Shown one piece after another: positions 1 through 21,000 of a stretch of DNA of 22,339 nucleotides. Each line of letters begins with the position of its first letter. Position 1 is the stretch's first letter. Made by a program: the position numbers and the translations under genes. This stretch comes from a virus. The notes under the pieces are model-generated. The model worked only from the letters and a program-made list of their open reading frames with translations. It made no database searches and had not been told where the DNA came from. The stretch spans positions 1 to 22,339 of the IMG/VR virus record IMGVR_UViG_3300020468_000085; one strand, given 5' to 3'.

Positions 1-19
1 TCAATTCTCGGTAGTCCTA
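1..19 (+). tRNA. 3' end of a tRNA cut by the window edge (isotype unknown)
   Basis: The first 19 bases fit the 3' end of a tRNA. Bases 1-6 (TCAATT) match the T-loop after its first T, 7-11 (CTCGG) the 3' half of the T-stem, 12-18 (TAGTCCT) the 3' acceptor strand, and A19 the discriminator. The C directly after the loop is the conserved C61. A complete tRNA begins four bases later, which suits a tight tRNA cluster. The 5' part and anticodon lie outside the window, so the pairing partners cannot be checked and no amino acid can be assigned. No CCA is encoded. Confidence 0.55.
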
Positions 20-23
20 TATT

Positions 24-98
24 GACTCAATAGCTCAGTTGGAGTAGAGCAACTGCCTTCTAAGCAGTCGGTCGTAGGTTCGAGTCCTACTTGAGTCG
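24..98 (+). tRNA. tRNA-Arg (anticodon UCU)
   Basis: A full cloverleaf folds by eye. The acceptor GACTCAA (24-30) pairs with TTGAGTC (91-97). The D-arm has GCTC/GAGC (33-36, 47-50). The anticodon stem ACTGC/GCAGT (52-56, 64-68) encloses loop CTTCTAA with anticodon TCT at 59-61. The T-arm is GTAGG/CCTAC around TTCGAGT (74-90). The discriminator is G98 and CCA is not encoded, so the 3' end must be completed by a nucleotidyltransferase. It reads AGA (and possibly AGG), a codon used often in the AT-rich genes downstream. It lies 3 bases before the next tRNA. Confidence 0.95.
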
Positions 99-101
99 TT
101 C

Positions 102-174
102 GGGAGTGTAGTCCAACGGCAGAGACAGGAGACTTAAAATCTCTACAGTGTGGGTTCAAATCCCACCACTCCTA
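102..174 (+). tRNA. tRNA-Leu (anticodon UAA), class I-sized, short variable loop
   Basis: The acceptor GGGAGTG (102-108) pairs with CACTCCT (167-173), including one G-U pair, and the discriminator is A174. The anticodon stem GGAGA/TCTCT (128-132, 140-144) encloses CTTAAAA with anticodon TAA at 135-137, reading the Leu codon UUA. The T-arm is GTGGG/CCCAC around TTCAAAT (150-166). The D-arm has a three-pair stem (GTC 111-113, GAC 124-126) with a large GG-containing loop, and the discriminator is A; both are usual in bacterial tRNA-Leu. The oddity is the variable region, only five bases (145-149) where bacterial tRNA-Leu has a long arm. It also lacks the group I intron common in cyanobacterial tRNA-Leu(UAA). 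Isotype is inferred from the anticodon and D-arm; aminoacylation is not shown by sequence. Confidence 0.85.
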
Positions 175-287
175 TTTTTTTGTCTAGGTTAAAATCACAT
201 AGATGTGAATTCCTTAGAACCCAAGCGTAATCAAGGTTTTACTTGTATAAATAATCTGAGCACCAACAATATTAAGCTGGATCAGAT
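175..287 (+). other. Intergenic leader between the tRNA cluster and the giant gene
   Basis: A run of seven T (175-181) follows the last tRNA. A short perfect inverted repeat, TCACA (195-199) and TGTGA (204-208) around TAGA, could form a five-pair hairpin. It is not followed by a T-run, so it is not a convincing intrinsic terminator. The late promoter word at 246-253 lies downstream. The only ribosome-binding candidate before the ATG at 288 is a weak GGA at 279-281, six bases upstream. No small ORF is convincing here. Confidence 0.5.
246..253 (+). promoter_or_regulatory. T4-type late promoter, TATAAATA
   Basis: The octamer is an exact match to the T4 late-promoter consensus, which is recognised by the phage late sigma factor gp55 with its co-activators. 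By analogy with T4, transcription would start about six bases downstream, near 259, giving a leader of about 29 bases before the ATG at 288. Its location in the only sizeable gap between the tRNAs and the long run of structural genes supports a real function. I found no other exact copy in the window. Confidence 0.85.
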
Positions 288-3200
288 ATGGCTTTGACAA
301 GACTGGATAATCTTATTAGTTCGAAGACTGGTAAGTATTTGTACGTCTCTCCTGACGACTTTAACGCAACAGATGAAATTAATAATAGAGGTAATTCCCC
401 TATTAGACCGTTTAGGTCAATTCAGAGAGCATTTCTAGAGATTTCGAGATTCTCTTATCAACCTGGACCAGATAACGACAGGTTTGACCAGTTTACTGTC
501 ATGGTTATGCCAGGTAAACACTATGTTGATAACAGACCAGGTCTTGCCACTGCTGACGGAATTGATGCTTTCCAGTTTGATCAAGCACTTAATGAATGGA
601 TTGACAACTCCAATTTAGATATTGGTGATCCTAACAACTGTCTTTATAAGTTTAACAACACTGAGGGTGGTGCTATTATCCCTCGTGGTTCTTCGATTAT
701 TGGTTATGACTTACGTAGAACATCAGTTCATCCACTGTTTGTTCCTGATCCTGCTGATAGGTTAGAACCAAGATCTGCTATATTCAATGTTACTGGTGGT
801 TGTTACTTCTGGCAGTTCACTATCAGAGATGGTGATTTAGAGCCTGCGTCACCATTGTATGACAATACTGACGGAATTGGTAAAGTTTATTATCAAAATG
901 GTGATTGGACTGCAAAAGCTGTACCAAACTTCTCTCACCACAAACTGACTGTTTTTGAGTATGCAGACAAAGAAGAATTAGGTCTGTACTACCAGAAAGT
1001 CGCTAAAGCATTTTCACAATATCAACCAACAATTGATGATCCAGGTGAATTCGGTGATAGAATTCAGGAGACTAGAATTGTTGGACCTCTCTCAGACATT
1101 CGTTCTGTTGAGACTATTAAACTTACAGATTCCTCACCAGCAGGAACTATTAATGTTGAAGTAACATCCAAAGTTAATCATGGATACTTCAAGAACCAGT
1201 TTGTTGCTATTGAAAACAACGGTCTGGATGAGCAACTTAACGGTGTATTCACTATTTCTGAGATTGATTTAGTTGATCAACGTAAGTTCTCCTATAATAT
1301 ACCAGGAACTGTTGCTGCTCTTGGTACTAGTGCATCTTTAATAAGTGGCACAACTTACACTACATCAAATGGTTTAGATTCTAATGCTGTAGTTAAGGCA
1401 GAGGTTGACTCTGTTGAATCTGCATCACCATACGTATTCAACTGCTCCATCAGATCTACATGGGGTATTTGTGGTATCTGGGCAAATGGTTTGAAAGCCA
1501 CTGGTTTCAAATCAATGGTTATCGCTCAGTATACTGGTGTATCTCTACAGAAAGACGATAGAGCATTCATCAGATACGATGAGTTTACAAACACATTCAA
1601 CCAAGCATCATTAAAAGATGCGTTTGCTACAACACCTTACCACACTAAGGGTGATGCATTCTTCAAAGATGATTGGAGAAACTTCCACGTTCGTGCTTCA
1701 GAAGATTCATTCATTCAGTGTGTTAGTATCTTCGCTGTTGGTTTCGCTGATCACTTCCTAATGGAAAGTGGTGGTGACATGTCTATCACCAACTCTAATA
1801 GTAACTTCGGTAATACATCATTACATGCTATTGGTCATAAAGGATTTGCATTCAACCAAGATAAGGGTGGATACATTGATGCTATTATACCACCAAAAGT
1901 TGTTGCTGAAATAGGAAATACTAAGAGACAGTCTTACTATACTATTGATGTTCAAGCATCTAACGATCAAGCAAACCATACCAAAATATATCTTGGTGAT
2001 GATAATGCTTATATTCCAACTGAAAGACCTGCTGCTACTATAGGTGGTTATCGTATTGGTGCAAAGTCTGACGAAAAATTATATGTAAAATTAGCACCAA
2101 GAACTACAGGTGGTAATAGTGAATTTAATGCAACACTTTCACCTAATGGATTCCAGAAGTTTGTTGCTGCTCCAGATATTTTAAATCCTTCTGCTGCTCA
2201 AGTTAATAATAAATCACAAGATGCTGCTAATTTAATTGAAGCAAACAAAGAATTTATTGCATTTGAAGCATATGGTTACATTACTGCAAAGTATCCAGCA
2301 TTACTTGTCAAACAAAGCATTGAAATTGTTAAGTGTCGCCGTGATATTGGTTACTTACTTGATGCTACTATTCAAGACTTACGACTTGGTGGAAATATTA
2401 ATACTATTCAGGCAGCTGAATCCTATTATGTAAAATCTGGTGGTGTTGAAAATCTAACTTACATTAATAATGAACTTAATGAAACACTAGAAGGTTACTT
2501 CTATGCAAGAGATCTAGCAATTGCTGCATTACGCAACTACTCATATAAACGTACTGGTGTAGAAACAACTGCTGGTAATTCTATCATCAAGGTTGGTGAT
2601 AGCAGTGGTATCGTACCAGGTATGACTGTTGCTGACTATGCACCTAGTGAGTTTGAGAATGCACAAGGAACTCAAACAAATGATCTTAAGACTGGTGCTA
2701 CTAGACCAGCACAACCTGTCATTCCTGACAATACATTTGTTAAGCGTATTGTTGATGCTACAACAGTTGAACTTGGTCAAGTAGCAACAACAAGTGTTAA
2801 GCAAGTAGTAGCAGATCGTAATGGTGATGCTCGTAACTTGATTCTTGCTAATAAGACATTCATTGCTACTGAAGCATATGAAAGAATGCTTCTTGATTAT
2901 CCTAACTATACACCTTCTACTGGTTACAATGCAACTACAGGTAAAGCAAAGTGCATTGATGATTTAGAGAAAGCAATTGTTGCAGTCTCTGAAAACACTG
3001 CTTATGGTGGTAATGCTGATACATGGGATGCTGCATACTATTATGATAGTGGTGCTGTACAAGATCTAGCAGCGAAGAAAGATGAAACTATTACAGCATT
3101 CAACTACTGTAAAGACATGGCTATTCAAGTCATGCGTAAAGAGAATGTATTCATCTATGGTACACATGGTTTAACACAGTCTAGTGTTACTTCTAATGAT

Positions 3201-6200
3201 CCTGTTACATCAGAGTCAGCAGAATTAGTAAATGATAGGAATGGTGATGCTCGTAACTTAATTCTTGCTAACAAAGAATTGATTGCACAGGAAGCTGTTC
3301 AAAGAATGATTCTGCATTCATCTACAGAACAGTTCACACCTACTGGTGCAGTATATGATCCTACTAGTGGTGATTTAACTCTTACCATATCACAGCATGG
3401 TTTAACTGGTGCTGATTCTTATACTGTAGCAGATGCAGATTATATACCTACTACTGGTGTTCTAACACTTACTATTGCTAATCATAACTTTGGTAATGGT
3501 GAGAGAGTTAAGATTGATGATGGATCATTAGTCTTTACATGCACTCAAGGTGCTGGTGAACATGCTTACCCAAGAGCAACTGACCCTGTAAGTAATAAGT
3601 GGTTGGTAATTTCTAATGTAACTACTAATACATTTGATGTTCATGTTGGTGATACTATTGATGGTAACTATGTACATACATTTGTATCAGCATCTTCTGG
3701 AACAAATAATCTTAAGAGAGCAGCAGATAGCGTAAGATTTGACTATAATTCATTTAAATTTACTTGTGCTATGGATGCTTCTGAAGAGAAGTCATATCCT
3801 CGTGTTGGTGATCCTGCTGGTGGTACAGTTCTACCTGTTGGTACAACAACTGCTGATAGTATAACACTTAGTGTTGGTAAGTCTTTAATTGTCAATTATG
3901 ATGTTAGCACTGCTGATTATAATCCAAATACAGGTGACTTAACACTTGACATTGGTGCTCACAATCTTAATGTAGGAACAAGCATCAAGATTCCTAATGA
4001 TTCGTTATCATTCAAATGTGCTAAGGATAATTTCGTTGCAACTAAAACATATCCTCGTGCTGGTGTTGATCCTTATGCTGACAAAGCAATTAAGATTACT
4101 AAGGTTGGATCTTCTTTCCACACAGCATCTGATGCAGATTACGATCCTGCAACTGGTAACCTTGACATAACAATTAACTCTCATGGATTCACTAATGGTC
4201 AGAGAGTTAGACTTGCAGACGATGCACTAACATTTACATGTGCAATGGATAACTATGCTACAGAGCATTCTTATCCAAGAAAAGGTGATCCTGCAAGTGG
4301 TGAGTTCTTAACTGTTTCTAATGTAACTACTAATCAGTTTAGAGTTAATGTTGGAATCGCTGGTGCTGCACAACAGTTTACACCTACCAATGGTACATAT
4401 GATTCTGCTAGTGGAGAGTTAACTCTTACTATTGCTGGTCATGGTTTGAATGTTGGTGAAGGTGTCGTTATTGAAGATAACTCATTGGCATTTACTTGTA
4501 CAATGGATGGTAATGATACTGCCAAGACATATCCTCGTACTAATAAGGATAATGCTTCTTCCAGATCTCTTTCTGTTGTTTCAAAAACAACTGATACCAT
4601 TACAGTTAATGTTGGTAATGCTGGAGATAATAAGTATTTCCAACCTTCTACTGGTACTTACAATGCAGCAACAGGTGCTTTAGAACTTAACATTGGACAG
4701 CATGGTCTTGCTACTGGTTCTAACATCGTACTGAAAGATAATTCAATCAGATTTACATGTGATAAAGACGGTGGTAATCAGATAGAAAGTTATCCTCGTC
4801 CAGGTGTTGACCCATTCGCAGGTAAGTCTATTGAAATTACTGACGTAGCATATTCAGAACAAACTGCTACTGATGCAACATATAATCCTCACAATGGTGA
4901 TTTAGAAATTACTGTTGCAAGTCATGGATTTACAGGACCACAAGAGTTTACACCTTTAGTCTCAGCATTAACTACATATGATCCTGCAACTGGTGTTCTA
5001 ACACTTAACATTCCTAACCACGGACTAACAGATGGTGAGTACATCAGAATTAAGGATGGTGCAATATCATTTACATGTACTAAGGATAGTGATACTCAAG
5101 CATATGCATATCCAAGAGCAACTGACCCTGCAAGTGGTAAGAACCTAGTTATTAGTAACGCACAACAGAGTACATTTGATGTCAATGTTGGTGTTGCTAC
5201 TGGTCTTGGACAATATGTACACACAGTCACAGATGTTGTAACTGGTGGTGTAACTTCTGGTGGTGATTATATACAAATAGCAGATAATTCTTTAAGTTTC
5301 ACATGCGATCTAGATCCTAGTGCTTCTGCTAAATCATATCCTCGTACTGGATTTGATCTTCCAAGTGGAAGATGGTTGCAGATCAGATCTATGACTGCAA
5401 ATACATTTGTAGTTAACGTTGGTAAGTCTTCTAATCTATCAACACATACAGCAAATACTGCTGGTTTTGTTGCTAATGGTATTAGAAAGCAGACAGGTGT
5501 AATTACAGTTAATGTTGGTTTTGATAGCAATGCTGCTAATCAATACACACATACATGGAGTAGTGCTCTTGCTGATGCTGTTGAGTTTGTACCACAGTCT
5601 ACACATACATGGGCTGCTTCACAACCTAATATAACAAACGCAGTCAAGCATACTCCTAACGCAGCTCATACATTCAAGAGATGTGCAACTGGTGGTATCG
5701 CTAGACAAAATGGTACTATCACAGTTAACGTTGGTGTTGGAGCTCCAGCAGATCGTTACACACATACATGGACAGGTGGCACTGCAACTGGTGCTGTAGT
5801 CAGTGGTGGTAACTATACTCATGCATGGGTATCAAGTGAACCTAACTCTGTACATAAAGTATTCTCTATTGCTGGCAATAGAAACTATCATGATCAAGAT
5901 TGTGTAGATGATACAGTAGATGTATTGGAAGCAATCGCAGATAACGTAGCATACGGTGGTAACGATAAGACATGGGATGCTGCTTATTCGTATAAGACTG
6001 GTGCTCACGTTGCTGGTGAGGAGACTGAAACTAATGAAGTCTTCCGTCATGCTAAGGAGATGGCTGGTCAGGTTATTAAGAACCAAAAGATTTTAAGAAT
6101 AGCATCTCATATTGATCAGGTATATGATACCACAATCACTGAGGATAATCCAACATCTGTTGATAATAAATCTGGTGATGCATACAATCTATTGATTGCA

Positions 6201-9200
6201 AACGCACAACTCATTGCTCATGAAGCATATGACAGAATGATCTTTGAGTTCCCAGACTTTACACCTCCAACTGGTAACCCACAAGATTGTAAGGATGACA
6301 TTAAAGATTTCGTTGTTGAACTTGCTCATAACGTAGGGTTTGGTGGTAATGATAGAACATGGGACATGTCAAACTTATATGTCTCAGGTGCTCATGTTGT
6401 TGGTGAAGAACCACAAACACTCAAGGCATTTGAAGATGCTAAGGAGTTGATGGTTCAGGTAGCAAGGAATGAGAAAGTTCTTATCAGTGGATCACATGGT
6501 AAGACTCAAACATTCTATACTGGTACTACTGATCCTTCAATTCCAGTTAACAATAAGGTAATTGATGCAAGCAATTTGGCAATTGCCAATAAAAATTTCG
6601 TGGCAGAAATTGCTCTAGGAAGGATGCTTGCACAGTATTCTAACTATATCTCACCACAAGGTTACACTACTGCTGATTGTCTTGATGATCTTAAGGATGT
6701 AGTAGATGTTGTAGCACATAACTTAGCATACGGTGGTAATGATCGTGTATGGGATGCTGCACTATTATACAACGCTGGTGCTCATGCTGCTGGATCAGAA
6801 AATGAAACGATCTATGCATTCAATCAAGTTCGTGACATTCTTAGACAAGTAATTATTAATGAAGCGGTTACAGTTGGTGGTCATACATCATTAACTCAAT
6901 CAACAGATACATCAATTACAAATGGTGTTGCTAATGGTGATTGTGATGATGCAAAGGCAACTATTACTACACTCGTTGGTATTTTAACTAATACTATCAA
7001 TACACCATCTTCACTTTATAGTATTACTCGTACTGAGTCTTCAACTAAGTGTGTCGCTGTTGTATCTACAATCAATACATTATACACAATAGTTAAGAAT
7101 TCTATTACAACTCCTGAGAGTCTTAAGAGTGTAACTAGAACAGTATCAGGTGGTAAGTGTGATAACATCAAGTCTACCATTGATACACTGTTTACTATTC
7201 TTACTAACACTGTTGCTAATGGATCTTCTCTTGATTCTGTATCAAGAAATATCTCTAATGGTCCTTGTCAGGAAGTTGCTTCAACAATTACTACATTGTT
7301 TAGTATTCTTACCAATACAATTAATACTACTGGATACTTAGATACAATTGATAAGACAGATATTCCTCTTGGATTAACATTAGGTCAGTCTGTTAATGCT
7401 AATTCAACAACTAGTGATTCTTATCTATGGTTTGAATGGCCAACATCAGGTGGAATTGCTGACACAGGTATCTACACAGATAAGAAACCAGTTATTGATG
7501 CATTCTTCAATAATGATCCTGCTAACATTTCTAATCAAGATACAAGTTATCCTGAGTGTGCTAACGAAGCAACTGCTGTACGCCAATACTTTACTAATAT
7601 TGCTACAATTATACAGTCTGGTTTAGGAACTGTTACTAGAAACGAACCTGTATCTTCTTCTGCATTATCCAGAAGAGCAACTATCTTTACACTTACAGAT
7701 CCATCTAAAGCACCAGCAAATCAATCTGATCCACATAAGTTAGAGACAGGAACACCAGTAAGACTTGTTCCTCGTCCTAAGTCAGGTGTAACAGTTGATA
7801 AGAGAAATGTTAGACTTCCAAATGGATTTAAAACTAACGAAGAATACTATGTAATTGCACCAGGTAGAGAAACAAATCCACAAGATTTCTCTGCTACAAC
7901 ATCATTTAATGGATTACAACAAGATGTATTAATGCTTGCAAGCAGTAAGGAAAATGCTGCTGCTGGTATCTATCTACACTCACAAGAAGTAAGTGGTATC
8001 CATCCAGATGTAGAAATTGATTTGTATCAATTTACTATTGATGATAGTTATGATCTACATCAATATGCTTGTACATTAGTAAGCAATGGTATACAAACTG
8101 ATGTATCTCACATCTTTGATTTACCAAAAGCAAATGTACCTGAAGGTCATCCAATATTCTTCAGAGCAGAGATTGGTAAAGACATGCCTACTGTTGGTGG
8201 TACTGATGCTAATGACCCTGCTGTTACAGTACAAAGTGGTACTGATATTGGTAAACTAAGAGGAGACAAAGAATTCTTTGCAAGGTATATTACACCTAAA
8301 GTATTTAAAATTTATAGAACACATGCTGATGCTATCAATGATGTAAATTCTATTGATCTTACTACTTCTACTAATATTGGTTTTAATGTATTTGCTAACA
8401 AGCGTACATCACCAATGCGTTTTGATCCTAGTTACACCAACTCACAAGTATCAGATAAAGGTAAGTGGTTCGTACAAGTAGAACCTAATTCTAGTGGAGC
8501 ACCTGCATCATCACAAGAGATTCTTGCAAGACTTCATGATGTTGAGTATAACGATGCATCTGGTAATACTAAGACTAATGATACTTGGTATACTCGTCTG
8601 AAGGATGATAGAACTGCTGATGATCGTATCTATCGTTTACGTTATGTAATTCCTAGCTACCTTAAATCAGTTCGTGATCCTCTAAATGGATTTACGATCA
8701 AGATGAGGAAGGATGAAACAAGAAAACTTCTTCCACAAAGAATTGTTCTTAAACCTGCTTCAGGTAATGCAGTAACTAAAGCAATCTTTAACAATACTAC
8801 TGATAGTGGTCAGGCTAATGAAATCATTGGTATGACATCTGCTCAGTTTGCTAATCCTGGTGGTAATCAAAATGCTCTTGATGTATCTAAGAGATATGAT
8901 CCATACAAGAAAGATTTAACTGGTGGTGGTAAAGAATATCAGGCATATATTAGAACTGATTCTAAGATCCAAGCAACTATTCAATCTGGTAGATATTTTG
9001 TTGATGCTGTAAGTGGTGATGAACTACTTGAATTGACAGTATTTGATCCTGAAATTGATTCTCAAGTACCTGCATTAAAGAATGAAACATTAACTACAGT
9101 TAAGATAACTGCACCTCAAGGAGGCACATTTATTTCTAATACTGCCAACCCTGTAACAGGTTACTTCCAGAATACAAAAGTAGAATGGGATGGTAATGAT

Positions 9201-12200
9201 AAGGGTACTGGTTATATTCATGCTGCTCTCAATGTTCCTGGAACTACAGAATGGCATTTGATTCTAAAAGGTATTACAGGAACATTAGATTATAGTTCTA
9301 CTGAAGACAATAGATTTACACAGACACAAACTAATGCAGTTGTATTTGCAGATCAACTTGCTGATCCTGATGATGGTAAATCATTAGAACTCAAAGAACT
9401 TATCCGTAAGGGTTACCCTGAGTACTACTATAAAGAGAAGTCATCTAATGTTTATACATTGACTGCTGGTGATACTATTACAGACCAAGCAGGTAATCAA
9501 TACTATATTGCATCTGTAAATGATTCTGGTGAAATTGATGACACATTCTATATCTTTGATGTGGAAGAGATACAAAGACGTATCTTTGAACAGCAAGATG
9601 GTATCTTCTATCTAACTGCTATCCGTGGTAATGTTTCACCATTCCCAACTGGTGCTGGTAACTTAGGTAACTTTAGAAACTTTAAGTTCTCTCAACCAAT
9701 CAGTAAACTATATCCATTAAACTATAAGAACGATCCAGTATGGTTCAAACAGTTAGATCCTAACCTTGTTGATCCACCAGCAACATACTCTGCTGCTGAT
9801 AACTACGTTCATGGTTTGGTTACTGTTAACGACTTCAAGAATTCAATTACTAAAGAAGGTATTATTGATTTCTTACAAACACCATCACTTAATCTTAACA
9901 CTTATACTGGTGACAATTTAATACAGGCACAGACTGGCAATGCTGCATCAGGATCTGAAGATCGTAAGATTCCTATCGCTGGTGACAACACAGTTGTTGT
10001 TGATCAGAGACTGTATGTTGAACTTCGTAGACCATCTATTGCACGTGCTGGTAACCATACGTTTGAATACCTTGGTTTTGGTCCAGGTAACTACTCAACT
10101 GGTTTACCTGCAAGACAAGAAGTCATACTAACTGTAGAGCAAGACTTCTATGCACAGTCTAAGAAACAGGATGGTGGTTTAGTATTCTACACTGGTCTTA
10201 ACTCTAATGGTGACCTATACATTGGTAACCGTAAGATTGATGCTATCACTGGTGAGGAAGTATTCCTAGAGTCTGCAACATTAGTTGACTCTGAAGATCC
10301 AGACGATATCATTGATAGTCTTGTTACTACATTTGACACCCCTGTAACATTCAACCAAAATATTACAGTTAATGGTGGTGATGATGGTAAGTTAGTTAAT
10401 ACATTCAACTCACCAGTAACTGTAAACGTTGCTAGTGGTTTAGGATTAACTTCATTCAGAGTTCTCTCTACTGTAAATCCAAACGCCACACCTGTGGGTG
10501 ATGATGAGACACTTGATAGATCGTCACAGCAAGGTAATTCAGTAACTAATGGTGACATTGTTCTTAATAAGAACATGATTGCTGCTTCTGTATTCCAGTT
10601 CAACCCACGTGGTTCTAATGGATTTGCACAAGGTTATAAGATTCAAAACCATGTTGTAGGAACCGAAGGTTCAAATGCAACTCCTTCACAGAGTGCAACT
10701 GCTAAAGATTACTTTGATTCAGCACAGGTAGTACGTTATGGTACTAATGGTGCTCTACCTATACCTGGCGATATTCTTCTTAAGGGTGATAGTGTTGGTG
10801 CATCTGGTTCTATCGGTTGGATCTATGCTAACTCTTATTACACATTAGGAGATCAAACTGCATCTAATCCAGATCAAGTATTCAATGTAGAATTTGACGG
10901 TAGTAGTCTAGTTAAGATTAACTGGAAAAATTCTAAACAGAATGGTAGTTTTGCACCTAAGATTACATCTGCAACTAAGATTAGAATCAAGAATTGTAGT
11001 CAACCAGCATTAAATGGTGTTCATGACATTGATCCTAACACATATAATGAAACCAATTCTTATATAAAAATTGTTATCGGTGCTAGTATTGTTTCAGGTC
11101 CACTTCTTTGGAACTCTGAAGTTAATGCTTCTATGGAATATTCTGACACTGCATGGAAAGAATGGGGTGTACTTGGTGGTGAAGCAATTAGAACAGAGAC
11201 TTCAGAACTAACAAATTATAAGGTTGGTATCAACACAGTTGCAAGAACTGGTGGAGTTAGTAGCACAGCATGGCAGTCGTCATTCGTTACTGATTCAACT
11301 ACACCAAAAGCAAACTTAGATGTTGATGGTAATGGTATCATCACTGGTTATAGCATTGTATATGGAACTGGAACGTTTATTGGTTTAGAGAATGCATTCT
11401 TGGTAGGTACAATGACACCTGGATTGCCAAATTCTTCTGCTATCTTACGTGTAAATGCTAAGACTAATCGTGTTGGTATTAATGTTTCTGATGATCAGAC
11501 AGCATCAACACAATTAGACAGAACACTTACCGTTAACGGTACTGGTAGATTTGCTGGTGATGTTGAGTTTGAACAGGACATTGATGTAAATGGTGGTGGT
11601 GCTGGAGTTAACAACACTGCTGAAATTAGAACAGCAATTACTGATGGAACATTTGAGTTCTTAATGAACAATGGATTTGAAGGTCAACATGACGCTTATC
11701 AAACATCTATTGGTGGTAGTAATGGATTCAAGATGGCTGGTTATGCCAAGAATATTGAATTTGGTAATGAGCAAACACTCATTCAAGAATTTGAAATTGG
11801 CAACAAATCAGCTAAGAGTTTTGTTGATCTAGGTGCTACTCCTGAAGGAGACGGTACAAATGCACATATCTCTAGGGTATCCATTGGTGGTGCATTCCTA
11901 AGCACAGAGACAGATTCTTACACACAAATTAATAACAAAGAGTTTAAGATTGCTGGTGATATTTTACTTGGTCAAGTCAAAGACAAGACTAATGGATCTA
12001 ATATTACTAGACGAGGTGCTGGTGATACATCATTCATTAGATCTACTGCTGAGAAAGTATCTTTCTTGGGAGACAACAGTGCAACAACTATAGTTGATTT
12101 TGCTACTAACGCATCGCAGTTAACAATTGCTGGTCAGGGTGGTACTACTACAATTAGAAACAATACTGTTATTGATTCTACATTAAGAGTCAATAGTGAC

Positions 12201-14837
12201 ATTACTTTATGTGGTGGATTAAATAACTTCTCATTCACTGCTGACAGACAACAAGCAGGTTCTGTTTCTGCTATAGCACATACTAATGGAATTCTCGGCA
12301 ATAATGTTTACAACAAGAATGTAGATATTGTTGATGTACTGAGAATTGCTGCAACAACACCAACTGGAAGTAAATCTGATTATAACAGAATTGATACTGG
12401 TGGTAGTGGTGCATGGGGTGATTCTACATGGAGTCAAGCAATTCCACAAGCAAATCTACCTGCTCTACCTACTGGACAATATTACTTACCACTTAAGTAT
12501 AGTCCATATAATAACATTTCTGTTGCTAATCCTAATGGTGATCAGTATTTCAATGAGAATGACATTCTCTTGATTGATAGTGCTGAAACTGCCACAGGTC
12601 ATGCAGAATTTGTTAAGATCGTTTCTCTTCCAAGAATCGTTGCAAGTAATAGTCCATATTATATTGTTGTAAGTAGACAACCATTTGGTTCATATACCAC
12701 AATATCTTCAACACATTTAGATACAACTGATATATTCAAGTGTACCGTACAGTTTGATTCTACATGGATTACATCTGATGTAGATCAAAATGCAGGTAAT
12801 AAGACAATCAATCTATCACAGTTTGGTGGTAACCTTGACGTTGATGATTATGTAATCATATCACGTGAAGATGGTACACCTTCTAATGATGGTGTTGATG
12901 ATCAAGGTGAAATCTTCAAATTAACAACTGTAATTAATGCAGTTTCTAAAAAATTATCCGTCAAAAAAGGATGTGACACTGCTTCTGAAGAGACAGTATT
13001 TGAAGTTGATTCTATAACTGGTAGTGTTACTATTGGTAATGGAAGTGAAAATACAAACACAATTATCAATGGTTCAGTAAGTCTTAAAGGTCTATGTGGT
13101 AGTGCTCTTGAAGTATATCCACCTGTTGATCCTTCACTGAATGATAAGTTTACTCTTAGCAATTCTGAGGCTAATGTATTCTCTGTTGACATGTGTAATG
13201 GAGATACAGTCATTGGTCACACAGTTGGTACTGTATTTGCTATTGGACAATATTATGGATCCACTGCTATTGCTCATGATAGCACGACAGTGGTAACATC
13301 ATACATGTATGATCCTCTCACTGAACAGACAAATGGTCCTACTACATCACTAGCAAGTGCTATTACTACGTCAACATTTGATATTCCTATTGCTTCAAAT
13401 GTAGATGCATTTACGAAAGGAGATTTAGTTGCTATTATTGATGGTACTAGTAATATAGAGATCATTCTTATTACTGATGATCCAACAACTGATGCATCTG
13501 GAAATGCAACATTACCTACAATTTACAATGCTGCTTATCCTGCTGGACAATACCCCAATGGTGGTAGAGGTCAGGAAGATACATCAGTTGCATCTTTCGG
13601 TGCTGGAGCAGTTGTTGTTAAACTTAAGAAGTTTACTGAAACAACATCATTAATTGATCCTATTGGTGCAACTGGTAGAACTGCTGTTGAGTCACCTAAT
13701 GCAAATGCAAACAAAATTAGAGTTAGACTTCATAATTCTAATATTGTTTCTGATAAGTTAGATTATATACAGTTCCTTAAGTTTAAAACTGGTACTGATT
13801 TTGAGTGGTTCTACCCTGATAGTATTGATGGCAACGCTGACAACTTATTTGGTGTAAGATTGTCTAAGTCAACTAGACTTGATGCTAATGGTAACTTCCT
13901 TGCAAATGGAACCCAAACCAGATACTTTGGTGGTGGTGAACTCAAGGTTCATGATAATGTTGAGATGATTGGTAGTAACCTCAGAATGTATGGTTCTGAC
14001 GGCGAAACTTTAGTCTTTGCCGTAGCTAACGATGATGACCACCTAGGTGATGGTTCAGTTCTTGATGAAAAAACTGGCACAGGGGGAATGTATGTCAATG
14101 GTGGAGCAACGGTTGGTGGTGATCTTAGAGTCATCTACGAAAGTTGTCAAACTAATGGCACATGCAGTAACGAGACCCAATTCCAAGCATTTGGTATTGA
14201 TGGTTCTGTTAACATGGGTGCGAAACTTTACATCAAGGGTCAAGTTTCTTCTGGTGGTAACTCACAAGAGGCAATTGTTCATGTTGATAATCTTGGTAGT
14301 GCTGGTAATGCAGCAATAGGACCAAGAGACTTCAAGATTTATCAAGATTGTTCAATTGATGCATTTGGTATTTCTCGTTACTTCACTAGAAATGGTGGTC
14401 GCAGATATACATATGTTGAGCAGTCACTTACTGGAATCGGTCAAACACAGGCAAGTCCATTACAACCTAATAACAACTACTTGATTAATACAAGTAGTGG
14501 TAATACTGTTGTGATGTATTTACCTGAATATGCAGAGACAGGTGACATGATAAGATTTGTTGAAGTTAGTGGAAATCTAACATATAATACAAGTCTAGTA
14601 TTAAGAGCACTTAAAGTCAACAATGTACCAACCGCTATTCAAGGTGACACAACTGGTACTAAGATTCAGGCAGGTGCTGGACAATTAGTTACTGCTTGGG
14701 ATAGTGGTGAACTTGTTGTTCAAACAAGAAACGCATCATTTGGTTTAATATATGTTGGTGCAACAGATGCTGCTGGTGATCCAAACGCATCTACAGTTCC
14801 ATCCAATTTACGTGGATGGTGGTTAACAGAACTCTAA
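288..14837 (+). CDS. Giant multidomain virion structural protein, likely tail-fibre or baseplate-associated adhesin
   Basis: This 4849-residue protein has no signal peptide or obvious membrane segment. Residues 1 to about 640 resemble a pectin-lyase-like right-handed beta-helix: PFRSIQRAF at 41-49 and a strand-plus-PG motif (MVMPG) at 72-76 match the usual entry of that fold. Residues about 640-2210 hold five helical A modules, one split by a beta-rich B array (about 1015-1866). Residues about 2217-2360 are four 36-residue C modules, with a diverged fifth near Cys2424. From about residue 3346 onward the sequence is fibre-like, with repeated short strands such as TVNGG and GDVEF. The C-terminus (after about 4728) contains VVMYLPEYAETGDMIRF and ends RGWWLTEL, a closing motif I associate with giant cyanophage structural proteins. 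I see no peptidase S74 chaperone motif. Neighbouring collar-type genes follow immediately, pointing to a role in host contact. It could be a long fibre or a baseplate appendage; sequence alone does not decide. The start is chosen at the ATG 35 bases after the late promoter. The N-terminus MALTRLDNL is also familiar to me from this family. Confidence 0.95.
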   Translation: MALTRLDNLISSKTGKYLYVSPDDFNATDEINNRGNSPIRPFRSIQRAFLEISRFSYQPGPDNDRFDQFTVMVMPGKHYVDNRPGLATADGIDAFQFDQALNEWIDNSNLDIGDPNNCLYKFNNTEGGAIIPRGSSIIGYDLRRTSVHPLFVPDPADRLEPRSAIFNVTGGCYFWQFTIRDGDLEPASPLYDNTDGIGKVYYQNGDWTAKAVPNFSHHKLTVFEYADKEELGLYYQKVAKAFSQYQPTIDDPGEFGDRIQETRIVGPLSDIRSVETIKLTDSSPAGTINVEVTSKVNHGYFKNQFVAIENNGLDEQLNGVFTISEIDLVDQRKFSYNIPGTVAALGTSASLISGTTYTTSNGLDSNAVVKAEVDSVESASPYVFNCSIRSTWGICGIWANGLKATGFKSMVIAQYTGVSLQKDDRAFIRYDEFTNTFNQASLKDAFATTPYHTKGDAFFKDDWRNFHVRASEDSFIQCVSIFAVGFADHFLMESGGDMSITNSNSNFGNTSLHAIGHKGFAFNQDKGGYIDAIIPPKVVAEIGNTKRQSYYTIDVQASNDQANHTKIYLGDDNAYIPTERPAATIGGYRIGAKSDEKLYVKLAPRTTGGNSEFNATLSPNGFQKFVAAPDILNPSAAQVNNKSQDAANLIEANKEFIAFEAYGYITAKYPALLVKQSIEIVKCRRDIGYLLDATIQDLRLGGNINTIQAAESYYVKSGGVENLTYINNELNETLEGYFYARDLAIAALRNYSYKRTGVETTAGNSIIKVGDSSGIVPGMTVADYAPSEFENAQGTQTNDLKTGATRPAQPVIPDNTFVKRIVDATTVELGQVATTSVKQVVADRNGDARNLILANKTFIATEAYERMLLDYPNYTPSTGYNATTGKAKCIDDLEKAIVAVSENTAYGGNADTWDAAYYYDSGAVQDLAAKKDETITAFNYCKDMAIQVMRKENVFIYGTHGLTQSSVTSNDPVTSESAELVNDRNGDARNLILANKELIAQEAVQRMILHSSTEQFTPTGAVYDPTSGDLTLTISQHGLTGADSYTVADADYIPTTGVLTLTIANHNFGNGERVKIDDGSLVFTCTQGAGEHAYPRATDPVSNKWLVISNVTTNTFDVHVGDTIDGNYVHTFVSASSGTNNLKRAADSVRFDYNSFKFTCAMDASEEKSYPRVGDPAGGTVLPVGTTTADSITLSVGKSLIVNYDVSTADYNPNTGDLTLDIGAHNLNVGTSIKIPNDSLSFKCAKDNFVATKTYPRAGVDPYADKAIKITKVGSSFHTASDADYDPATGNLDITINSHGFTNGQRVRLADDALTFTCAMDNYATEHSYPRKGDPASGEFLTVSNVTTNQFRVNVGIAGAAQQFTPTNGTYDSASGELTLTIAGHGLNVGEGVVIEDNSLAFTCTMDGNDTAKTYPRTNKDNASSRSLSVVSKTTDTITVNVGNAGDNKYFQPSTGTYNAATGALELNIGQHGLATGSNIVLKDNSIRFTCDKDGGNQIESYPRPGVDPFAGKSIEITDVAYSEQTATDATYNPHNGDLEITVASHGFTGPQEFTPLVSALTTYDPATGVLTLNIPNHGLTDGEYIRIKDGAISFTCTKDSDTQAYAYPRATDPASGKNLVISNAQQSTFDVNVGVATGLGQYVHTVTDVVTGGVTSGGDYIQIADNSLSFTCDLDPSASAKSYPRTGFDLPSGRWLQIRSMTANTFVVNVGKSSNLSTHTANTAGFVANGIRKQTGVITVNVGFDSNAANQYTHTWSSALADAVEFVPQSTHTWAASQPNITNAVKHTPNAAHTFKRCATGGIARQNGTITVNVGVGAPADRYTHTWTGGTATGAVVSGGNYTHAWVSSEPNSVHKVFSIAGNRNYHDQDCVDDTVDVLEAIADNVAYGGNDKTWDAAYSYKTGAHVAGEETETNEVFRHAKEMAGQVIKNQKILRIASHIDQVYDTTITEDNPTSVDNKSGDAYNLLIANAQLIAHEAYDRMIFEFPDFTPPTGNPQDCKDDIKDFVVELAHNVGFGGNDRTWDMSNLYVSGAHVVGEEPQTLKAFEDAKELMVQVARNEKVLISGSHGKTQTFYTGTTDPSIPVNNKVIDASNLAIANKNFVAEIALGRMLAQYSNYISPQGYTTADCLDDLKDVVDVVAHNLAYGGNDRVWDAALLYNAGAHAAGSENETIYAFNQVRDILRQVIINEAVTVGGHTSLTQSTDTSITNGVANGDCDDAKATITTLVGILTNTINTPSSLYSITRTESSTKCVAVVSTINTLYTIVKNSITTPESLKSVTRTVSGGKCDNIKSTIDTLFTILTNTVANGSSLDSVSRNISNGPCQEVASTITTLFSILTNTINTTGYLDTIDKTDIPLGLTLGQSVNANSTTSDSYLWFEWPTSGGIADTGIYTDKKPVIDAFFNNDPANISNQDTSYPECANEATAVRQYFTNIATIIQSGLGTVTRNEPVSSSALSRRATIFTLTDPSKAPANQSDPHKLETGTPVRLVPRPKSGVTVDKRNVRLPNGFKTNEEYYVIAPGRETNPQDFSATTSFNGLQQDVLMLASSKENAAAGIYLHSQEVSGIHPDVEIDLYQFTIDDSYDLHQYACTLVSNGIQTDVSHIFDLPKANVPEGHPIFFRAEIGKDMPTVGGTDANDPAVTVQSGTDIGKLRGDKEFFARYITPKVFKIYRTHADAINDVNSIDLTTSTNIGFNVFANKRTSPMRFDPSYTNSQVSDKGKWFVQVEPNSSGAPASSQEILARLHDVEYNDASGNTKTNDTWYTRLKDDRTADDRIYRLRYVIPSYLKSVRDPLNGFTIKMRKDETRKLLPQRIVLKPASGNAVTKAIFNNTTDSGQANEIIGMTSAQFANPGGNQNALDVSKRYDPYKKDLTGGGKEYQAYIRTDSKIQATIQSGRYFVDAVSGDELLELTVFDPEIDSQVPALKNETLTTVKITAPQGGTFISNTANPVTGYFQNTKVEWDGNDKGTGYIHAALNVPGTTEWHLILKGITGTLDYSSTEDNRFTQTQTNAVVFADQLADPDDGKSLELKELIRKGYPEYYYKEKSSNVYTLTAGDTITDQAGNQYYIASVNDSGEIDDTFYIFDVEEIQRRIFEQQDGIFYLTAIRGNVSPFPTGAGNLGNFRNFKFSQPISKLYPLNYKNDPVWFKQLDPNLVDPPATYSAADNYVHGLVTVNDFKNSITKEGIIDFLQTPSLNLNTYTGDNLIQAQTGNAASGSEDRKIPIAGDNTVVVDQRLYVELRRPSIARAGNHTFEYLGFGPGNYSTGLPARQEVILTVEQDFYAQSKKQDGGLVFYTGLNSNGDLYIGNRKIDAITGEEVFLESATLVDSEDPDDIIDSLVTTFDTPVTFNQNITVNGGDDGKLVNTFNSPVTVNVASGLGLTSFRVLSTVNPNATPVGDDETLDRSSQQGNSVTNGDIVLNKNMIAASVFQFNPRGSNGFAQGYKIQNHVVGTEGSNATPSQSATAKDYFDSAQVVRYGTNGALPIPGDILLKGDSVGASGSIGWIYANSYYTLGDQTASNPDQVFNVEFDGSSLVKINWKNSKQNGSFAPKITSATKIRIKNCSQPALNGVHDIDPNTYNETNSYIKIVIGASIVSGPLLWNSEVNASMEYSDTAWKEWGVLGGEAIRTETSELTNYKVGINTVARTGGVSSTAWQSSFVTDSTTPKANLDVDGNGIITGYSIVYGTGTFIGLENAFLVGTMTPGLPNSSAILRVNAKTNRVGINVSDDQTASTQLDRTLTVNGTGRFAGDVEFEQDIDVNGGGAGVNNTAEIRTAITDGTFEFLMNNGFEGQHDAYQTSIGGSNGFKMAGYAKNIEFGNEQTLIQEFEIGNKSAKSFVDLGATPEGDGTNAHISRVSIGGAFLSTETDSYTQINNKEFKIAGDILLGQVKDKTNGSNITRRGAGDTSFIRSTAEKVSFLGDNSATTIVDFATNASQLTIAGQGGTTTIRNNTVIDSTLRVNSDITLCGGLNNFSFTADRQQAGSVSAIAHTNGILGNNVYNKNVDIVDVLRIAATTPTGSKSDYNRIDTGGSGAWGDSTWSQAIPQANLPALPTGQYYLPLKYSPYNNISVANPNGDQYFNENDILLIDSAETATGHAEFVKIVSLPRIVASNSPYYIVVSRQPFGSYTTISSTHLDTTDIFKCTVQFDSTWITSDVDQNAGNKTINLSQFGGNLDVDDYVIISREDGTPSNDGVDDQGEIFKLTTVINAVSKKLSVKKGCDTASEETVFEVDSITGSVTIGNGSENTNTIINGSVSLKGLCGSALEVYPPVDPSLNDKFTLSNSEANVFSVDMCNGDTVIGHTVGTVFAIGQYYGSTAIAHDSTTVVTSYMYDPLTEQTNGPTTSLASAITTSTFDIPIASNVDAFTKGDLVAIIDGTSNIEIILITDDPTTDASGNATLPTIYNAAYPAGQYPNGGRGQEDTSVASFGAGAVVVKLKKFTETTSLIDPIGATGRTAVESPNANANKIRVRLHNSNIVSDKLDYIQFLKFKTGTDFEWFYPDSIDGNADNLFGVRLSKSTRLDANGNFLANGTQTRYFGGGELKVHDNVEMIGSNLRMYGSDGETLVFAVANDDDHLGDGSVLDEKTGTGGMYVNGGATVGGDLRVIYESCQTNGTCSNETQFQAFGIDGSVNMGAKLYIKGQVSSGGNSQEAIVHVDNLGSAGNAAIGPRDFKIYQDCSIDAFGISRYFTRNGGRRYTYVEQSLTGIGQTQASPLQPNNNYLINTSSGNTVVMYLPEYAETGDMIRFVEVSGNLTYNTSLVLRALKVNNVPTAIQGDTTGTKIQAGAGQLVTAWDSGELVVQTRNASFGLIYVGATDAAGDPNASTVPSNLRGWWLTEL
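2205..6906 (+). repeat. A modules: five repeated helical units inside the giant protein
   Basis: Units begin near 2205, 2814, 3234, 6159 and 6546. The shared pattern is an N-terminal helix of the kind NLILANKxFIAxEA, then a Cys-Asp-Asp motif, then AYGGNDxTWDAA, then an acidic GAHxxGEExET stretch, a long helix and a HGxTQ end. The first copy is diverged (CRRDIGYLLDA in place of CxDD). The third is split: its N-terminal helix is at 3234-3323 and its Cys-Asp-Asp part resumes at 5886, with the B array between. Copies 2 and 3 share an exact 20-base stretch (2820-2839 and 3240-3259, 420 bases apart). The units look like a stacked helical stalk, but no function is known to me. Confidence 0.88.
3330..5885 (+). 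repeat. B modules: array of beta-rich units inserted within an A module
   Basis: About eight full or partial units of roughly 80-90 residues follow the pattern Y(D/N)PxTGxLxLxIxxHGL, then an acidic xIxDxSLxFTC strand, then YPRxxxDP, then a VxTNTFxVNVG strand. Partial copies occur: one near 3350-3430 stops after HGLTG, one near 3715-3890 lacks the first half, and the last third (about 5430-5850) degenerates into THTW and TVNVG fragments. Exact DNA matches link distant units: 3610-3629 with 4315-4334, and 3570-3588 with 5112-5130. The Cys of FTC (once FKC) is conserved in nearly every unit. The fold could be Ig-like or another beta-sandwich; I cannot tell. Confidence 0.85.
6936..7367 (+). repeat. 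C modules: four exact 36-residue repeats, one Cys per unit
   Basis: Four tandem units carry a Cys codon at 6942, 7050, 7158 and 7266, each exactly 108 bases (36 residues) after the previous one. The pattern is Cys, then STIxTLFxILxNTI, a short turn, then SLxSVxR. The spacing of hydrophobic residues suggests an amphipathic helix followed by a turn and a short second segment. A diverged fifth unit appears after a spacer of about 60 residues, with Cys at 7557, followed by YFTNIATIIQ and TVTRNEP. Codons differ between units, so the periodicity is kept at protein level. Confidence 0.85.
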
Positions 14838-18061: not shown

Positions 18062-21000
18062 ATGACAGTATCATCACCACCAACCTATAGAAATATTAGA
18101 CCAAACTATTATACAGATAAAGCATCTGATAACAGTCCTGTTGGTGCTATTATTAATACTTTTAAGGCAACTACTGATGTTTATGATAATCAATACACAC
18201 CAATAAGTGCTTATGCAGTTACCACTGGTAATGCTAACACACAAACTAATCCAGAACATCAATATCCTGGCTATTTGTATTGTGATGGTGCTGAGTATGA
18301 AATTAATGATTTTCCAGCATTATATTCTATTATTGGTAATGATTATGGTGGTTCTCCAAGACAAGGAATAGAAATTACTAATGGTGGTAGTGGGTACGCT
18401 GCTGGTACTACAATATCGTTTGATCCTCCACCTCCTGGTGGTACTAATATGACAGCAACTTTAGTTATTGTCAATGGTGTAATTACAGGTATCACTCTTA
18501 CTGATGTAGGAGCAGGGTATGTACAAGAACCTTCATTCACTGTTGCTAGTGCAGGTGGTGGTAGTGGTCTTCAATTAGAACTTAATTTTGGTAATGGTGG
18601 AGAAATACAAACAATTTCACCAGAAAATGTATATGATCATTGGGGATCTACGAGAACTTTAGGAACATTTAAAGTACCCGATCTTAAAACAAGAAAGGTT
18701 GTTGGATATGGTAATGTTTATGGACAGGGATCACCCAGTATTGGTTTACTTACACTCGGTGCTGGTGGAAATAATGGTGTCATAAAGCAAGGTGGATCGT
18801 GGTATTTTGACAAAGGATCTCAAGCAGGATATTTTTCTCTTGGTTCTATAACTACAACTGGTTATACTAATATAACAGATGACGTATCAACTAGCATAAT
18901 TGGTAGTCAAAAAGTTCATGTTACAATGCAAGAAAGAAGATTGCAAAGAGTACCTGATCATTCACATTTCATTTATAGTACAGCAGCTGACGATACCTTT
19001 ACATTTCGTAGTAGTATAGGTGGTGATAGATATTTGGTAAATTATACAAATTCAAATGCACGTTTATATGGTTGGCAACCCATAGGTGGATTGCATTTCC
19101 AACATAAACATGGTTTGTCTAAATCACCACTTGCATCAAGAGAAGCAGCAACATATGATGTATTTGACTGGAGAGCTGGTGCTGAAGGAACTGGTAGTAT
19201 TAAATACACATCACCTGATTTTTATTTTGCATCAGGTGGTTCTGATTCTGGTACGTTTGAGGAAGTAACAGAAACTGCACCATCTATGTTCAGAACATTT
19301 ACTGGTAATCCACCACCAAATGCAGGTTCTGTGATTGGTGGTAGACAGATCAGAACTGGTGGTAAGGATATTATCACATATACTCAAGACGTTACATATA
19401 GTGGTACTTCCTCTATCTCATTTCCACCAGCATGGACTGTCATGGAGGTGGAGATGCATGGTGGTGGTGGATCAGGTAGTAGTGGTGAAGCAGCAGGTAA
19501 TGATGGAGAAGATGTAAACTTGACAGTTGTAGCAGGTGGTACATTACTTGATATAACTGCTGGAGGTGGACAAGGAGGAGGAAAATCAAATAATTATACA
19601 AGTGGTGGTACTGGTGGTGTTACTACAAGTTCAGGTAGTGCATTAACTGATGGATCCTTCACTGCTGATCTTAGTCAAGATGGTACTGCTGGTCAGACAG
19701 GTACTGGACAAAATGGAGTATTTCCTGGAGTAACAAATCCAACTAATCCTAACGTAGCAGGTACTGGTGGTATAGGTTTAGTAGAAAATGTTGCAGTTGG
19801 TGCTGGTAGTGATGGTATTCATACACAAATTGGTGGATCACCTGTAACCACAACAGAACAATACACTTCAACAAGTTTGGGAACTGTAAATTTATCAACA
19901 ACTTCAGAATTTACTGATATTACATTTACTATTCGTGGTGGACAGGGTGCTGACTCACAACGAGGACCGAATAGTGGTAATCCAATTGGCGGTGCAGGAT
20001 CTAAAGGAACAGTAATGATACTTGAATGGCTCAATCCTGAACAAAACACATCATATTCATTTCAGTTACAGGCAGGTGGTGCTGGAAGTAGTTATAGTGG
20101 TGCTAATCGTGATGGCACTGGTGGTGCTGGTGGTGCTGGATATGGAAACTCAGCTGGAAAACGTGGTGGTGATGGTGCTACTGATGATGGCGGTGGTGGT
20201 GGCGGTGCGTCTGTTGTTCTTTTTGGCAATCAAATAATCGCTGGTTCTGGCGGTGGTGGCGGTGGTGGCGGTGCTCAAACCAGTACGACTTTATATAATG
20301 GAAGAAATGGTTATAATGCTACCACATTATATGAACCTAATAGTGGTCAAACTGCAAATGTCCTTTACACAGGTGGTGGAACACCTGGTGGTAACTTCGG
20401 TTGCGTAGGTGGAGGAGGAGGCGGTGGAGGTGGTGGTATCTCCATATCCTCTAGTGGTGGAGGTGGACAAGGTGGTGTAGGTGGTGATCCATCTGGTACT
20501 GGTGGTGTAGGTGATCATGATGGTGGAGAAGGTGGATATGCTGGAAAATCTGCATATCTTCCATCTTGGTTTAATTTTGTTAATGCTTCTGCAAGTAATA
20601 GTGGTGCTGGATCAATAACTATAGAGTATACACAAAGCAATCTTGCATGGTCACCTGGCGGTGGCGGTGGAGGTGGTGGTAGATATGTAAAATATAAAAT
20701 TGACAAAGATAAATTACCTGGTGCATCGGGTGCTCAAATAACATTTAATAATATTGCTGCTGCTGGAGTTGGTGGTACAAGTAATGGAGAATTACCATTT
20801 GCAAGAGTTGGATTTGGTGAAATTACTGGATATGAAGGTGGTGAGGTTAATACATCAATAGGAGATATTGTTGTTGGTGCAAATGAAAGTACAAATATAT
20901 TTGCATCTGGTGCAGGTAACGGTGCTGGTGGTGGATTTAAACTACCAACTACACAGGTTCCTGAAGTTGAATTTGTAGGTGGTGGTGGTAATGGTGCTGC

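Follow-up and report, generated by a model that had tools for sequence, protein, structure and literature searches.

Nested insertion of protein domains over many levels is rare. The closest described system is SI3 of the RNA polymerase beta' subunit, where six-level recursive insertion was reported for Prochlorococcus rpoC2 (A2C6T1); in the accessible part of that survey, the six levels in RNA polymerase stand as its complex case (PMC13114784). Here we describe an architecture of the same kind in an unrelated setting, a phage fibre, where it is deeper and occurs in natural variants. Common to both are small beta domains (predicted in our case) in each other's loops, a chain that runs out and back, a long arm on a core, and the cyanobacterial host group. 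The two differ in that a single domain, B, is both host and guest here, at four sites, and in that relatives differ by single insertions. Depth is 7 below the module that carries the insertion (9 in a relative, L013) as against six, although, going by the accessible text on SI3, counting conventions may differ by one. In the literature searched, in which subscription journals are thinly covered and which included the accessible parts of PMC13114784, PMC10665884, PMC3037559 and PMC10452541, no publication turned up that described phage fibres with nested domains or with modules resembling phycobiliproteins.

The window, i.e. the whole analyzed stretch of 22,339 nucleotides (IMG/VR record IMGVR_UViG_3300020468_000085), contains the following gene:

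288..14837, plus strand: giant fibre protein P0001, 4849 aa (ORF call; phrog_4527 match)

The cyanophage that encodes P0001, a giant fibre protein, is marine and T4-like. In a profile search, phrog_4527 ('short tail fiber protein') matched aa 2087-4849 with 3646.6 bits, and the protein also falls into phrog_5342, a cluster of cyanophage fibre proteins; the names of these clusters are silent on nesting. Genes with tail collar domains come after P0001 in the window, a layout shared with named phages, and profile match and genome context both place the protein in the T4-like cyanophage fibre family phrog_4527. All of the 321 phage records that matched the module A4 (see below) were named Synechococcus, Prochlorococcus or cyanophage, and a BFVD search had cyanophage proteins among its best matches (first row E 1.6e-80). 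Two observations on fibre genes are added here. The fourth fibre gene of the window has a 9-base tandem repeat (20248-20273) in a glycine-rich part with raised GC content and GC skew, and the S-PM2 record (L150 10678-15505) has a tRNA gene cluster annotated within the open frame of the fibre gene, perhaps an annotation fault.

P0001 contains a repeated module, A. HMMs for the two halves of A, trained on A1, A2, A4 and A5 only and thus excluding A3, found five N-halves and five C-halves:

2196..2543, plus strand: A1 module, uninterrupted, aa 637-752 (HMM)
2802..3146, plus strand: A2 module, uninterrupted, aa 839-953 (HMM; best PF00502 stretch 847-953)
3228..3323, plus strand: A3 N-half, helix, aa 981-1012 (47.7 bits, HMM built without A3)
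5898..6089, plus strand: A3 C-half, Cys-x-Asp-Asp helix onward, aa 1871-1934 (74.7 bits, HMM built without A3)
6150..6476, plus strand: A4 module, uninterrupted, aa 1955-2063 (HMM)
6537..6866, plus strand: A5 module, uninterrupted, aa 2084-2193 (HMM)

The third N-half match itself covered aa 981-1009 (3228-3314), and its spacing from the third C-half was 861 aa, versus 9-13 aa in the other four pairs. When joined, the A3 halves aligned end to end with A4 (54/110 identical residues, 49%), A2 (53/112, 47%), A5 (48/115) and A1 (38/113), with Z between 10 and 26 against 300 shuffles each. The four uninterrupted modules share 29-47% identity with each other, so that the joined A3 is comparably close. 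An earlier sequence-only reading had proposed that the third A unit is split by some 850 residues of B units and had suggested aligning the joined halves to A2, A4 and A5. The halves detected without A3 bear out the split, the alignments run the full length, and the A3 coordinates given at the time were correct to within a few residues; the splitting and nesting of the B units themselves had gone unnoticed. The interruption lies in loop 1 of A, the stretch just before the conserved Cys, and the interior, aa 1016-1857 (3333-5858), consists of about 850 residues of B material. The same split was present in 16 other parsed loci, so that it is no artefact of assembly. Right after A5, aa 2217-2360 (window 6936-7400) comprise four helical repeats with one Cys each (CDDAKATITTLVGILTNTI and similar).

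Early hits of a B profile in this interior were complementary rather than randomly truncated (profile positions 1-28, whole B, 26-81; or 1-70, 2-25, whole B, 25-92). In many units the final strands were missing, as was a tail element, HTFxxAxxNAI, and the missing parts reappeared past the innermost unit. The final profile had 104 positions and was built from 55 contiguous units, so that split units did not enter it. It was used with a stack parser, a dynamic programming procedure that allows a complete unit at any point within another. The window was then parsed, for aa 1016-1857 (842 residues), as one single top B unit with eight units in total and a depth of 7, with no residue left unassigned, scoring 965 bits with nesting versus 674 bits without. 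Inserted domains here host further insertions, level after level, and the pieces opened going out close in reverse order coming back: A3( Ba( Bb )Ba( Bc( Bd( Be( Bf( Bg( Bh ))))))). Four insertion loops of B were found, at profile positions about 26-29, 56, 72 and 86, of which the second is used in relatives and not in the window. B had no match in Pfam. The pieces are listed below; all come from the stack parse, and limits from structural alignments of the predicted model (VIA rows, discussed below) are given in model numbering.

3333..3419, plus strand: Ba first piece (profile 1-29), aa 1016-1044
3420..3725, plus strand: Bb whole unit in Ba at the alpha site, aa 1045-1146; VIA rows 68..171
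3726..3896, plus strand: Ba second piece (profile 30-85), aa 1147-1203
3897..4118, plus strand: Bc first piece (1-72) in Ba at the delta site, aa 1204-1277; VIA rows 226/227..866/867 versus predicted 230-303 + 835-866
4119..4376, plus strand: Bd first piece (1-86) in Bc at the gamma site, aa 1278-1363; VIA rows 300-303..833-835 versus predicted 304-389 + 817-834
4377..4637, plus strand: Be first piece (1-86) in Bd at the delta site, aa 1364-1450
4638..4859, plus strand: Bf first piece (1-73) in Be at the delta site, aa 1451-1524; VIA rows 474..794/795 versus predicted 477-550 + 763-795
4860..4952, plus strand: Bg first piece (1-26) in Bf at the gamma site, aa 1525-1555; VIA rows 549/550..752-761 versus predicted 551-581 + 685-762
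4953..5261, plus strand: Bh whole innermost unit in Bg at the alpha site, aa 1556-1658 (also a MAFFT gap); VIA rows 576/577..684
5262..5495, plus strand: Bg second piece (27-104), aa 1659-1736
5496..5594, plus strand: Bf closing piece (74-104), aa 1737-1769
5595..5657, plus strand: Be closing piece (87-104), aa 1770-1790
5658..5711, plus strand: Bd closing piece (87-104), aa 1791-1808
5712..5807, plus strand: Bc closing piece (73-104), aa 1809-1840
5808..5858, plus strand: Ba closing piece (86-102), aa 1841-1857

We put the probability that the B units are nested in each other, last in and first out, and not arranged in tandem, at roughly 0.88. The most obvious alternative is a tandem array of partly degenerate B beads followed by a separate tail of short beta repeats (HTFxxAxxNAI), in which A3 would be the only domain that is truly interrupted. 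Several B hits in the window are indeed nearly complete and lie in a row, and un-nested units alone account for 674 of the 965 bits. However, in 17/17 regions (see below) the ends of truncated units complement each other and follow in the correct order, and the tail pieces match the units left open in number and kind.

The order of the pieces speaks against a tandem array as well. When the five return pieces of aa 1204-1840 were placed in all 120 orders, the top four were the native order and its three piece-type equivalents (one class of 30). The next class scored 18 bits below native, and the first-in-first-out order ranked 115th of 120. Two of the equivalents, in which the closing pieces of Bc and Bf are swapped, outscored the native order by 1.3 bits, and the tails of Bd and Be were interchangeable in score, so that within the class the assignment of tails is decided by order only. 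As many as 95 of the 120 orders still parsed as a single unit of depth 6 or more; depth by itself therefore proves nothing, and it is the score that separates the orders. When all 15 pieces of the window were permuted, the native order beat 75/75 permutations (0/75 reached its score), and for the four-unit array of S-RIM44 the native score was reached in 9/150.

Parsing was extended to a total of 17 A3 regions (window, L007, L008, L010-L021, L029 and L031, with L018 and L019 nearly alike). Left unparsed were L009 and L023 (cut contigs), L022 (same architecture as L021), and L024-L028 and L030 (on contigs already represented by other loci); for L047-L146, annotation was by HMM alone. Every one of the 17 regions parsed as a single top unit, with 8-13 units, depth 6-9 and 17-22 residues outside the top unit per region, the deepest being L013 with 13 units and depth 9. 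Another fibre, in named phages (L002-L005) and in the contigs L034 and L046, carried 4-5 units at depth 4, with 35-113 residues unparsed. Nested B was also present in named phages, namely Syn1, S-RIM44, ACG-2014j, Sf-CH1b and P-RSM6, the last with several B clusters of up to 5 units and depth 5, and 6 of the 13 named-phage loci examined had A modules without any B.

A MAFFT alignment of 13 A3 regions (without L019), made blind to the parse, had long gaps at four positions, each corresponding to one complete B of 104-108 aa, tail included. The first gap lies between c and t of Bb and is empty in the window, L007 and L008. The second is the alpha loop of Bg, occupied by Bh in the window and empty in 7/13 regions (L012, L014-L018, L020). 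The third, between c and t of Bf, is occupied in L010, L011, L013 and L016, and the fourth, in the second loop of A3, in L010 and L011. A fifth indel (Bc of L012, L014 and L015) was split in two by MAFFT, and the edges of a sixth (L013, L017) were indistinct. The gaps comprise a whole B together with its tail, so that gain or loss concerns entire B units, at B loops as well as A loops. Judging from these alignments, the arrays grew by insertion of whole B units into loops of B. A tandem array does not predict that a whole unit and its tail piece are gained or lost together between c and t of a host, nor that distant pieces are joined in a three-dimensional model (see below). We give that reading little credence, and it was dropped on account of the parse, the order controls and the indels.

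Nesting being preferred, the proposal of the sequence-only reading that a B unit entered a loop of an A module and then expanded in place is to be revised in part. Insertion into the A3 loop agrees with the whole A modules found next to A3 and in relatives, but the expansion was apparently by nesting and not in tandem. Relatives were also compared for versions lacking the insert. Loop 1 of A is empty in L077 and carries nested B in L066, and at loop 2, L047-L050 differ from L051/L052, which are empty, by a single B. Empty A modules do exist, but none of the relatives examined had an empty A3 in the gene type of the window, the empties being paralogous or in other fibres. Some further arrangements were noted in passing. 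B units that look circularly permuted, with the tail or C-terminal part ahead of the N-terminal part, were seen within A in L080 (aa 1600-1845), L145 (aa 1885-2000) and, by eye, L002 (aa 1243-1329). Still larger arrays of split B lie 5' of the A3 C-half in L134, L136, L138, L140, L142 and L143, starting beyond the stretch examined. Only two loci with B come from cellular genome bins (L155 and L156; one Nonlabens contig of 188 kb and one contig from a Euryarchaeota MAG), and both are probably phage contigs.

An AlphaFold model of aa 975-1942 was calculated for a single chain from an alignment of 13 sequences, and the parse was not given; a 17-row alignment that misplaced Bg was left out of folding. 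Mean pLDDT was 76.9, mostly 70-90 in the B part, and pTM was 0.47. Structure-alignment rows were read by their first and last aligned residue only and were used for limits, not for family assignment. Among 50 such rows, 17 had the outer limits of predicted discontinuous units (Bc 4, Bd 5, Bf 3, Bg 5), with Z 2.3-5.4 and 52-87 residues aligned across spans of 204-642. Be appeared in rows without its tail only (387..473, 394..469), and eight or so further rows covered several units or matched no unit. The DSSP patterns of the eight joined B units superpose. At the gamma sites the model has long strands, outward at 294-304 and 540-551 and returning at 830-840 and 758-768, as if each guest were seated on an extended hairpin of its host. 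B is predicted to be a small beta barrel of about 104 aa with adjacent chain ends. Bb gave its best structural rows with an E1 domain (4p22_B) at Z 8.0 and with phage tail tubes at Z 7.5; among the rows listed for the window model, none was named as the sandwich-barrel hybrid motif of SI3, a fold that B may nonetheless have. A Foldseek search of PDB with the 968-aa model gave no meaningful match (first row probability 0.35, TM 0.07).

The C-half of A3 had pLDDT below 50 in this model, so that closure of A3 itself is argued from sequence and from a proxy. As a stand-in for the A fold we used L082, a natural A with one B at loop 1. In its model, the A helices had pLDDT mostly 80-95 on both sides of B, and B was low, due to the few B sequences available for it. 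Phycobiliproteins accounted for 48 of the 50 listed rows, with Z 8.1-11.2, and the rows after them fell to Z 3.0. The best row (Z 11.2) aligned 117 residues over model positions 6..237, a span that places both A halves in one fold. A split host domain with its halves in a single fold, as expected for recursive insertion, is accordingly indicated by sequence and, for A, by the predicted fold of L082, as well as, for B, by the unit limits in the window model. Closure of A around nested B is very likely in relatives, as modelled, and is supported less directly for A3 itself.

Phage fibres are usually homotrimers, and the closing pieces could in principle complete B units of a neighbouring chain by domain swapping, so that nesting would be between chains; the AlphaFold model was of a single chain. 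Against this, the monomer model already builds the units within one chain. The indels of unit plus tail are compatible with nesting within a chain or with swapping. Swapping would alter only the pairing partner and leave the sequence grammar the same. We regard it as improbable, about as much so as the tandem array. Chimeric metagenome assembly is a negligible concern and was dropped: repeats assemble poorly, and most of the loci, like the window, come from metagenome contigs, but P0001 is one open frame of 4849 aa, 16 further loci share split and nesting, nested B also occurs in the five named phages, and complete phage genomes contradict such an origin.

Intra-chain nesting thus being retained for B, we turn to A. 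An alignment mixing in B-only rows put A rows on B columns and was set aside. A profile of 43 A units matched 166 PDB sequences at E up to 10 (best 1.1e-7), and the best 60 of the 166 were all phycobiliproteins. PF00502 matched P0001 with 32.7 bits, above the curated cut-off of 22.2, and, at E<=1, 30/43 single A units, the best of them at 4.2e-6; taken by itself, the first member scored 16.4 bits, under the cut-off. C49 is conserved in at least 90% and D52 in 43/43 of the A units, and both align with the chromophore Cys and Asp of phycoerythrin (Cys84 and Asp87). The phycobiliprotein fold was also recovered in the predicted L082 model, and A is predicted to be a shortened, phycobiliprotein-like helical fold. 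The likeness to phycobiliproteins (PF00502; phycocyanin, phycoerythrin) therefore comprises the profile, the Cys/Asp motif and the predicted fold, whereas A differs in being shorter, in its tandem arrangement in a phage fibre, in often having CxDD instead of CxRD, and in taking up B at two loops.

The Cys raises the question of a bilin. In 6 of the 7 named loci that were looked at, a gene for a CpeT-like bilin lyase precedes the A-module fibre gene by 0.7-1.8 kb; in L147 none was annotated:

L005, 8227-8751: CpeT-like gene
L006, 5963-6487: CpeT-like gene
L148, 5083-5616: CpeT-like gene
L149, 6163-6702: CpeT-like gene
L150, 6074-6601: CpeT-like gene
L151, 5267-5791: CpeT-like gene

The window begins 287 bases before the fibre gene. 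As far as the accessible text goes, the role of phage bilin genes has been described as unsettled (PMC3037559), and T-type lyases as serving Cys153 of beta subunits (PMC10452541). A direct link between CpeT and the A modules is disfavoured, since Cys153 is not the Cys kept in A. It is very doubtful that the stalk consists of phycobiliprotein descendants still bearing a putative bilin on the conserved Cys, loaded by the phage lyase; if it did, the shaft bearing the nested B arms would be coloured or bilin-sensing.

Sequence together with natural variation establishes the split A, the B unit, the nesting order and the insertion sites; the folds of B and A and the three-dimensional domain limits have the support of prediction. 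Five A modules make up the middle of P0001, and B sits in the A3 loop that precedes the conserved Cys. We propose that repeated self-insertion of B into B loops created one recursive object within A3. The chain would run outward via the outgoing pieces to Bh at the tip and then back, closing each B in reverse order. Both ends of the 842 residues would therefore meet at A3, leaving the stalk unbroken, and the arm would be branched, because Ba hosts two guests. Gain or loss of whole B units between strains would alter the length and branching of the arm with the stalk intact; new B units might enter by recombination between B copies, which is a guess. The out-and-back path of the chain suggests that nested B probably projects from the fibre as a side arm, as the sequence-only reading had proposed. 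Given the fibre family, this arm may serve adsorption, by changing the reach, number or spacing of cell-surface contacts, a suggestion that we make tentatively.

Together, the above observations place this fibre among the deepest nested protein architectures described, with a depth that varies between related viruses. With B acting as host as well as guest, and with extant variants that are one insertion apart, comparison can reveal the rules by which recursive growth proceeds. Annotation of such regions as a 'repeat array' must change, as cutting them in tandem splits most domains. For the phages, the nested arm may be a means of making a fibre longer and branched while its stalk stays unbroken, and A places a phycobiliprotein-like domain in the virus particle of viruses of cyanobacteria.
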